A DNA stretch of 64,000 bases from Brachycybe producta. Lineage: Eukaryota > Arthropoda > Diplopoda > Playtdesmida > Andrognathidae. Of the stretch, positions 3,728-6,282 are shown in pieces. The notes beneath the pieces were generated by a model. The model had not been told where the DNA came from. It searched no databases and saw only the letters and a program-made list of their open reading frames with translations. Made by a program: the position numbers and the translations under genes. Position 1 is the stretch's first letter; each line of letters starts with the position of its first letter. The stretch lies in contig JAUPFP010000042.1 in assembly GCA_036925085.1 (NCBI GenBank), positions 1,292,045-1,356,044 of the forward strand, in the 5' to 3' direction.

Positions 3728-6282
3728 TCAAATCGTAATCCCGATGATGTTTTTTAATTGTGACCAGTTCTTTGCCGCAATGATCGTGGCTCTTTCATTC
3801 CCCTTTTGCAAGACATTTCGTACATAACAAGGATCTTGCAAAATTTGCTTTAATCTGTTTCGTATGGGCGATAACTTTTCATTCAGTATTTCAGCCAGCT
3901 TCATCTTGTATTGCGCGGTTTCTAATCCAACGCTTTCATCGCAAACTTGCCGTTGAGTTTGTCCAGTAAAAAGACAATGGATATCGATGAGGTTCGACAC
4001 TCCGAGCCTCATCTGTGGATCGTACGTGACGGCCGACGTGCAGTCCGTCACCGCCTTCTTCAATTTCTCGACAGTCTCGTCCTCAGTGTCGGTTATCTCA
4101 ATGCGGCTCCTGGGATCCAAATCCGACTTGCTCATCTTCTTTGTCGGATCTCTTAAACTTTTTAATCTCGTCATACGACCTAATAAAAAAAAACAAGAAA
4201 TTCGTTTAATTCTTTCCAGACTAGTTCACGATGATGATCTCTTGCCTAAAATCGGTTTCGGATGCGGAAAGAATGTCGTCTTATATTTGTGATTGAAGAT
4301 CCGAGCTAAATCTTGAGCTAATTGAACGTGTTGTAGTTGGTCCTCCCCGACGGGAACATGAGTCCCTCTATTACAGGAATAAATAAATACTTTCTGCTGT
4401 TAAGGTGATTCTAAAGAGTAAACGCCTCTCAAACACCGATCATTCTGTCTTTCAGGAATAAAATGAAGAGAAACTAGATAGTGGTTTAGAAACTATAAGG
4501 ATAGCTCAACCACTTAAAAGTATTTTCATAATAAGCCATTTATGCGAGTTTGAAAATGACCGAACTTGAAGCAGACGATATTTTTAAATTTTTTGCCTAT
4601 GAAAAGTTTATTTTGAAAGATATCAACATGAAAATACTTTTAAGTGGTTGAGCTATCCTTATAGTTTCTAAACCACTATCTAGTTTCTCTTCATTTTGAA
4701 CCTGAAAGACCGAATAATTATGAGTTCTCAAATCAGCTGTTCATAAACCATTTTAAATGTAAAAAAAAAACTGTAAAAATACTGTAAAAAAATTCCAAAG
4801 TTTCTTACTTATATAATAGAATATCTGCACTCTGTAACACAGGATAAACAAATAAACCCAACGGCTTTTCTTTCAATTTCTCTGATTTTTCCTGAAATAA
4901 AATGAATATTTTTTTTCAAAATTACAAAAAACTGCATCAATGCAATGATCTGACGACCTTCCAACGATGTTTCAATACCTTGTACTGAGGCAATCGTCCC
5001 AAACGTGCCATCGTCGTAAGACACGTCAATAACCAGGCCAGTCCCGTATGCTCCATTACCTTCGAAACAAACGAAACGACATTACATGCACTACTGCGTA
5101 CTGTGTCTCGAACTAGTTTAAAAAGAGACTGACGATATCGGATTTATATACAGTTCAAACCATTTAACAAGAAAACAGATAACATGAAAAATCGAATAAA
5201 ACAAAATATATGTACGGAGTAGACCTTCAGCATTCGTTTTTTTTTCCATATATTTAAATTCATTTAAGATAAAACGCATAACTCGAAAACATTGAATAAC
5301 ACAAAAAACCTTTTCGCTCTCTACAACAGAAATCTGCCTAAATCAGTGGCAGAGTTTCTCGAATTCGCTTAATGATCTTAATCCTTTCTGGACAATAAAT
5401 TTAAAACGAACACAGTGCAATCAAAGATTAATGAGTTTTCTAAAAGGGTCACGAGGAAATTTAAGTTTTAAATTATAAAAAATGTTCGTATTATATTTCT
5501 TGCCATTTTCACCTTTATTATAATATTGTAATGCCATAAATACGTTTTAAATTTTTTCTTTTAACACGAAAATTTTTTCCGGTTCCTTAATCTTCCATTT
5601 CTTGTTAAGCAGGTTCCACCGTATACATGTAACTCGATTACGACAACTTATTACATTTGATTGCTGAAAAAGAATTGTTTTCTCCGGATCGATTCCACTA
5701 GCCAAAAGGGTTGCAGTCATCCGAAGAATATTATTCCTAAAAATGATAAAACAAAACACAAATTAATTAAGTTAGAATTTATTTTTATAGAAATCAGAAA
5801 AGAAACCGAGAACCTCAGGACGATCGGATCTTGAGGCATCGTAATCGAATGCAAATCCACGATGCTGATCAGAATTTCGTCCGTCGCTTTTGTTTCATTC
5901 TGAAGCTGGACCCAGTTAGTTACGGCACCGAAATAATTTCCTAAATGAAGAGATCCAGTTGGCTGAATACCGGAGAAAATCCTTCGATAGACTTCCTTCA
6001 CATCCTTGAATCGAAACAAAACAAAAATTATTATTAATTATTAAATTAATTTCTTCTTCAATATTTACTTGGCGCCAAATTGTGACCCATGCAGGTGTTT
6101 TTTTTTAAATAGTAAAAATTAAATGTTATTGAGAAACATACACTTAGTGGAGTAACAGAATTGCCAGTGGTTTCAGTATGGATTTCACTAGAATATATTC
6201 GGAACGTGTAATACTTTTTTAATCTAACTGTACAATAAGTGGTACATTTATAGAATTTGCGAAATATGCAAATAAAATTCAT
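3728..6282 (-). CDS. WARS2: Mitochondrial tryptophan-tRNA ligase, seven coding exons, complete
   Basis: A class I aminoacyl-tRNA synthetase that charges mitochondrial tRNA-Trp with tryptophan using ATP. Minus-strand exons: 6142-6282, 5814-6004, 5655-5736, 4979-5059, 4809-4891, 4246-4367 and 3728-4179. Together they give 1152 nt, 383 residues plus stop, with every phase consistent; human WARS2 is about 360 residues. The first 47 residues are rich in Lys, Arg, Tyr and Thr and nearly free of acid, as expected for a mitochondrial presequence. The HIGH-type signature appears as SLHLGN (residues 65-70), the family segment THVPVGEDQ follows in exon 6, and KMSKS lies at residues 248-252. [20 protein letters not shown] is typical bacterial/mitochondrial TrpRS. 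Intron 6 has a GC donor (AG|GCAAG). Intron 5 carries a perfect foldback element. The initiator is the first ATG of an exon whose donor joins in phase 0. Confidence 0.95.
4180..4245 (-). other. GC-AG intron in WARS2 (intron 6)
   Basis: Given in transcript order on the minus strand: the exon ends TTTTAG at 4246, the intron begins GCAAGAGATC, and it ends at TTATTAG before 4179. Joining here restores [17 protein letters not shown] in frame. The nearest downstream GT would shift the frame. GCAAG is the usual form of minor GC-AG introns. Confidence 0.8.
4404..4755. repeat. Foldback family A, copy 2 (arms identical over about 62 bp)
   Basis: In WARS2 intron 5. The segment starting AGAGAAACTAGATAGTGG (about 4460-4521) is the exact reverse complement of the segment at about 4638-4699 ending TATCTAGTTTCTCT. 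Both share variants (GATAGTGG, CTATAAGG) not found in other copies. The centre holds AAGCAGACGATA, common to the family. TTAA precedes the left end. Confidence 0.9.

Follow-up and report, generated by a model that had tools for sequence, protein, structure and literature searches.

An inserted foldback element lying within a WARS2-like gene, in one of its introns, carries two arms whose sequences are exactly reverse-complementary along 70 bp, at 4460-4529 and 4628-4697 of the window (the whole stretch of 64,000 nucleotides under analysis), confirming and lengthening the run of about 62 bp described in an earlier, sequence-only reading. Judged by comparison with sister copies, this is probably an old insertion whose arms had drifted apart and of which one arm was overwritten late by the other, with a replication template switch as the most likely cause. 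Across the family, about 5% of the copies examined carry detectable tracts, while the arms of the rest look independent or nearly so. The explanation favored here is that inserted copies repeatedly have one arm copied onto the other, most likely by template switching at the imperfect inverted repeat.

The focal copy and its family

The focal copy, a MITE-like foldback (4404-4752, plus strand), spans 349 bp between presumed target-site duplications of TTAA at 4400-4403 and 4753-4756, neither assigned to a strand, and the family profile matches it at 4401-4755 with 332 bits. Inverted-repeat detection places the left arm at 4439-4529 (plus) and the right arm at 4628-4718 (minus), each 91 nt long, 95% complementary and 98 nt apart, enclosing a loop at 4530-4627 (plus) that lies in consensus orientation according to the inverted repeat and loop typing. 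Outside the arms are a left terminal segment of A type (4404-4438, plus), found by end typing and alignment to lack complementarity to the right end, and a right terminal segment of B type (4719-4752, minus), assigned by end typing. Along the left side of the tract (plus), hand-counted off-consensus positions at 4479, 4484, 4496, 4501 and 4510, among others, are mirrored on the right side (minus) by changes at 4678, 4673, 4661, 4656 and 4647, also counted by hand. The tract is bounded, the outer ends being of A and B type and the inner left arm unlike the right side, and its inner left edge coincides with the junction of a 15-nt deletion relative to the consensus (4529-4530, plus; gap placed after CAT). 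As a template-switch scar this deletion is suggestive only, the base rate being high. Across the family, deletions of at least 8 nt at paired columns 86-118, the zone in question, occur in the left arms of 40/198 copies versus the right arms of 8/198, a fivefold difference.

Three open reading frames tested on the minus strand around the copy match PF00579 (class I Trp/Tyr tRNA synthetase) in the right order, with matching frames on both sides of the element, and one of them, scanned against NCBIfam, matches trpS TIGR00233 (E 2e-21, below the model's whole-protein cut-off). These matches fit the intronic location in a WARS2-like gene, transcribed from the minus strand, that had been proposed earlier. 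The longest open reading frame within the copy itself encodes 47 aa.

The family comprises short, apparently non-coding elements with inverted symmetry and many dispersed copies. At first look, each DNA query returned between 5,115 and 9,547 candidates from the genome searched (295 Mb, 442 contigs). Twelve copies or fragments occupy 3,147 bases of the window, and one arbitrary 10-kb stretch of genome contained none. The consensus extends over 370-372 columns, its two arms differing at 5/130 paired columns. TTAA flanks 104/212 typed ends, being present at both ends of 26, one end of 52 and neither end of 28 among 106 copies. In being small, apparently non-coding and built with inverted repeats, the family resembles the TTAA-linked MITEs of coral (CMITEs), a likeness by features and not by sequence comparison; the CMITEs are tied to piggyBac-like transposons and occur in tandem arrays in the available portion of PMC2872659. 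Family copies directly adjoin one another at 23642-24278 of the window and at L066:998-1632. Other inverted repeats of the window, including those at 22485-22735, 36391-36608, 34888-34939 with 35041-35092, and 55953-56096 with 56393-56534, were unmatched by the focal query. Pairs of identical score were found on different contigs (G000:C158:108411 and C6:3501320; C121:87936 and C28:3362368), perhaps duplicated scaffolds or haplotypes.

Both focal arms carry GATAGTGG and CTATAAGG, where the consensus of 198 copies has GAAAGTGT and CTAGAAGG. The arms share seven off-consensus columns, three of which are not rare. The rare shared states A50T (15/383), T55G (13/390), G67T (9/389) and T81C (12/373) are each found in roughly 2-4% of other arms, G72A in 43/389 (11%), and the states at columns 89 and 90 are common, near 30%. 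A whole-genome search with a 36-nt core, allowing up to 3 mismatches, returned 27 matches, comprising the two focal arms at 0 and 25 others at 3, with none at 1 or 2 mismatches anywhere in the 295-Mb assembly. The description of these variants as private to the copy consequently requires division, as it stands for the set present in both arms and fails for the variants taken singly, which occur in 2% to about 30% of other arms. Other copies carrying the same variants, which would have made this a young subfamily, were sought genome-wide with the core and not found. The earlier argument that variants shared by both arms did not arise by independent point mutation is upheld, with arm-to-arm copying as the best explanation.

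Arm sharing within and between copies

Arm sharing was assessed in two sets of copies. In the first, 5 duplicates were removed, 266 non-overlapping matches were kept and 198 near-full copies were used; this sample is not random, having been drawn from searches in which the focal copy, L050, L044 and L131 served as queries, from pattern matches, from co-located copies and from the window. The replication set, with thresholds fixed beforehand, comprised 66 matches without duplicates, of which 62 near-full copies were used, drawn from 59 new places returned by two query copies and from one one-arm pattern match (L235); the query copies themselves show ordinary arm sharing, ranking 134 and 69 of 198. 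The arm-sharing score weighs shared rare bases over 130 paired columns and ignores gaps. A gap-counting score was replaced by it, shared gaps having dominated that score, with between-copy pairs reaching 83 and a focal P of 0.0027.

Plain alignment of the arms of 159 near-full copies gave a median score of 99 within copies and 97 between copies. When all right arms were ranked for a given left arm, its own right arm lay at a median of 0.456 down the list, near the middle, and was the best match in 7/159 copies (about 1 expected). The longest exact run had a median of 17 within and 16 between copies. Runs of at least 60 bp were found in 2/159 copies (the focal copy with 70 bp and L044 with 75 bp) versus 0/25,122 between-copy pairs, and runs of at least 50 bp in 3/159 versus 3/25,122. 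Sharing of rare variants in the 198 copies showed the same pattern, with medians of 2.89 within and 2.62 between copies and a slight displacement (Mann-Whitney p 0.006, rising to 0.037 once the six strongest copies are removed). These near-equal medians rule out strong family-wide homogenization of arms, and the systematic excess of within-copy identity that the sequence-only reading had proposed as a check is absent in any strong form; what appears instead is a heavy upper tail holding about 5% of copies, and this tail was replicated. The statement in that reading that the arms of other copies differ is correct in general and fails for L044 with its exact run.

The focal copy scored 25.5, and none of the 39,006 between-copy pairs scored above 14.8. 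Six of the 198 copies exceeded all of these pairs, namely L131, the focal copy, L044, L139, L148 and L066:27-273, the last being a weak family member (49 bits). Eleven copies lay above the 99.9th percentile (0.2 expected) and 26 above the 95th (9.9 expected). The focal copy was preselected, and without it the counts are 5/197 above the maximum and 10/197 above the 99.9th percentile. In 2,000 re-dealings of right arms, the count above the 99.9th percentile averaged 0.25 and never exceeded 3, and the 40 shared rare bases observed compare with 12.8 in 300 re-dealings (sd 3.4, maximum 24). The excess extends beyond the six strongest copies, as 9 of the remaining 192 lie above the 99th percentile (1.9 expected). 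When the six are compared with one another, no score exceeds 6.5.

When the null was restricted to the 10 nearest relatives of each copy, 8/198 copies exceeded all 3,960 comparisons; thus, subfamilies do not explain the sharing. Among 100 arm pairs from copies less than about 3 kb apart, 3 lay above the 99th percentile versus 1 expected (p 0.41); this is no clear excess, so that local base composition is an unlikely cause and copying between neighboring copies is not indicated either. In the replication set, 3/62 copies lay above the 99.9th percentile (0.07 expected), and 1/62 copies versus 0/3,782 between-copy pairs exceeded the maximum of the first set, with a small excess at the 90th and 95th percentiles (9 versus 6.2 and 6 versus 3.0). 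Both sets together place 14/260 copies above the 99.9th percentile, and the alternative that the focal copy is one atypical insert gives way to the presence of tracts in other copies as well.

The tracts of these copies differ in extent and preservation. L044 (C1:3709068) has an exact run of 75 bp, and its arms have insertions and an off-consensus block in common. A search with its 26-nt core at up to 3 mismatches gave 71 matches: its own two arms, 1 at one mismatch, 11 at two and the remainder at three. Two of the 11 are the arms of one other copy (C21:1765476/1765655), in which the block or a close form of it thus occurs on both sides; in other copies it is mostly one-armed. That copy, L136 (G000:C21:1765476, plus, and 1765655, minus), carries a TAAAAC block in both arms which is one-armed in several other copies. 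It entered the first set because both arms carried one pattern, and its score of 8.1, above the 99th and below the 99.9th percentile, places it outside the 11. In L131 (C93) the tract covers approximately the whole arm including the end, with 3 substitution differences in paired columns, and in L148 a whole-arm tract has several differences, which mark it as older. The arms of L212 share variants and a 2-nt deletion, so that in L212, as in L044, indels as well as substitutions are common to both arms. L131 and L139 have two rare states in common, which, like the occurrence of the L044 block in other copies, counts against the favored explanation. The tracts have decayed to differing degrees, as would be expected had the events happened at different times. 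Symmetry is also seen in composite, nested elements: L139 (G000:C93:435500-435900) and L090 (G000:C1:3416020-3416430, outside the 11 copies above the 99.9th percentile) each show the same element-piece junction in both arms.

Timing, mechanism and rival explanations

Outside the tract, pairs drawn from the 15 nearest relatives in the set gave the focal copy a terminal branch of 0.069 at the minimum, with a median of 0.109. By arithmetic from this branch, arms identical at insertion would be expected to show about 10-15 differences in 2x70 bp, and none is observed. The tract is off consensus at 8/67 positions in each focal arm, compared with 30/221 in the remainder of the copy. The absence of differences where about 10-15 are expected points to copying that was late relative to insertion, with the qualification that closer relatives outside the sample would shorten the branch. 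Bases specific to one arm favor neither arm as donor (log10 odds of -0.24 with all copies and 0.17 with A/B copies only).

The sequence of events would be as follows. A TTAA-flanked, high-copy foldback element would have inserted, and its arms would have drifted apart. Late at this site, one arm would have served as the template to re-synthesize at least 70 bp of the other, the nascent strand presumably folding back on, or crossing to, the complementary arm, copying it and returning, as in quasipalindrome correction. Such copying would leave the arms identical within the tract, with the off-consensus bases accumulated by the donor on both sides. Template switching is the putative cause of the copying because it is documented to homogenize the arms of short, non-identical inverted repeats and to invert their spacers, and arms of the length and divergence found here seem ill suited to classical conversion.

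The strongest rival, break-induced (Rad51-type) gene conversion between the arms, within a chromatid or with the sister, is possible but unlikely. Short (about 90-130 bp), highly mismatched arms such as these would be poor substrates for classical gene conversion, although the present data fit both mechanisms. Conversion would give the same end product and is known between the arms of large palindromes (PMC3723533, in its available text), and core inversions could also arise by crossing-over between arms.

Much less probable is a snap-back copying of one arm at the birth of the element or before its last transposition, by which the identity would date from insertion. The small difference between the consensus arms implies a founder close to a perfect foldback, which suits this account. 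The focal copy, however, has differing ends (A and B) and a loop-proximal left arm that differs from the right and bears the 15-nt deletion, and its tract is as far off consensus as the rest of the copy, with no arm differences in place of the expected 10-15. The earlier suggestion of an origin of the element in the copying of one arm is therefore not supported, and its corollary, that the pattern speaks to how the family multiplies, holds only indirectly, as late arm copying tells how inserted copies mutate.

An assembly or polishing artefact imposing one arm on the other deserves mention since palindromes are hard to sequence; it is highly improbable, as the partly eroded tracts and shared rearrangement junctions of other copies are unlike polishing errors. 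A young subfamily whose master held the variants in both arms draws on the presence of each variant singly in other arms, but is scarcely credible, being ruled out for the focal copy by the 36-nt core search of the assembly; moreover, among the 40 best candidates, which were those scored, the top sister copy is 79% identical and partial, shorter matches reach 84-85%, and between-copy pairs, including nearest relatives, stay below the focal score. Selection for a perfect RNA hairpin in the WARS2 intron through compensatory point mutations would accord with the very stable hairpin predicted for the transcript strand (-160 versus -64 kcal/mol for shuffles), yet is equally hard to credit, given that such stability is expected of any foldback, that three of the shared changes (A>T, T>G, G>T), being transversions, have no G-U intermediate, and that the tract forms one block.

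End arrangements, known systems and significance

Both ends could be typed in 106/198 copies, the other 92 being untypable. The arrangements were A-loop-B in 72 copies, A-A in 18, B-loop-A in 11 and B-B in 5, with the loop itself untyped in 1 of the 11 B-loop-A and 2 of the 72 A-loop-B copies; L039:984-1342, L085:350-658 and L120:50-406 are example loci for these arrangements. In the B-loop-A copies the outer arm haplotypes are exchanged, as seen at column 47 (p 9e-5 and 3e-4) and likewise at columns 28 and 36 (p 0.02 to 3e-4), while the association of inner column 121 with the loop is unchanged (p 1). These copies look like core inversions, from one old event or recurrent ones, and at the level of the family the class is in line with template switching. 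Where the tract reaches the end, as in L131 and L148, both ends are of A type and unusually alike; L044 has two A ends that are not unusually alike, and the focal tract stops inside, leaving A and B ends in the usual arrangement. Of the A-A copies, only L131 and L148 (2/18) show end similarity above the 99th percentile; most A-A arrangements are therefore probably inherited and older than the copy.

The process itself is already known. In the available parts of the two reports, template switching homogenizes the arms and inverts the spacer of short, non-identical inverted repeats (PMC8604942), and template-switch (quasipalindrome-correction) mutation occurs at short imperfect inverted repeats (PMC3820800). 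Both resemble the focal case in that the arms of an imperfect repeat become identical in one tract, and spacer inversion, their companion product, may have a counterpart in the B-loop-A copies of the family; they differ in concerning short repeats in yeast genes or reporters whose ancestor or parent is known, whereas the present case involves a dispersed transposon family, a tract of 70 bp and inference from sister copies. Short-range template switches in great apes, as far as described in the accessible text of PMC7954356, likewise copy a nearby reverse complement and often yield perfect inverted repeats, with a median copied length of 12 nt and a maximum of 128 in the gold-standard set; the focal tract is long against this median and within the maximum. 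Template switching that perfects RNA hairpin stems likewise accounts, through a single event, for changes that match across the stem, in RNA genes under selection and not, as here, in apparently non-coding transposon copies (PMC8794818, in part).

In the inverted repeats of nematomorph mitochondria, the arms remain identical while their sequence changes, template switching being one of the causes offered in the part of PMC6649704 available; those repeats are coding and mostly perfect, in contrast to the diverged arms of most copies in this family. The arms of mammalian sex-chromosome palindromes convert each other in a similar manner, but the palindromes are large and exceed 99.9% arm similarity according to the available text of PMC3723533, whereas here the arms measure about 90-130 bp and such copying is rare. 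Among the papers listed in searches of open-licence literature, none described arm homogenization across copies of one MITE family; the nearest is a remark, in the accessible part of PMC4079207, that repeats within the arms of Tetris, a foldback element, may have been homogenized, and the portion of PMC11226609 at hand contains nothing on arm copying. The substrate and the sister-copy test may be new here.

Conversion of imperfect into perfect repeats is hard to count genome-wide because too few differences are often left, and many near-perfect to perfect conversions were classed as non-significant by the authors' method in the available text of PMC7954356. A large family of similar foldbacks with a computable consensus supplies the missing denominator of substrates, events and tract lengths. 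As an order of magnitude, and with non-random samples, the present counts correspond to about one detectable event per 600 arm substitutions (median divergence of 0.127 over 260 arm positions). With somewhat less than even confidence, we propose that foldback families may act as natural replicated recorders of short-range template switching, and that arm copying together with core inversion may be a major uncounted route of their diversification and of the reshuffling of their ends (AB, BA, AA, BB). On this reading, roughly one examined copy in 20 in this genome shows a detectable arm-to-arm tract, measuring between tens of bp and about 100 bp, and roughly one typed copy in 10 has a core inverted relative to its ends.
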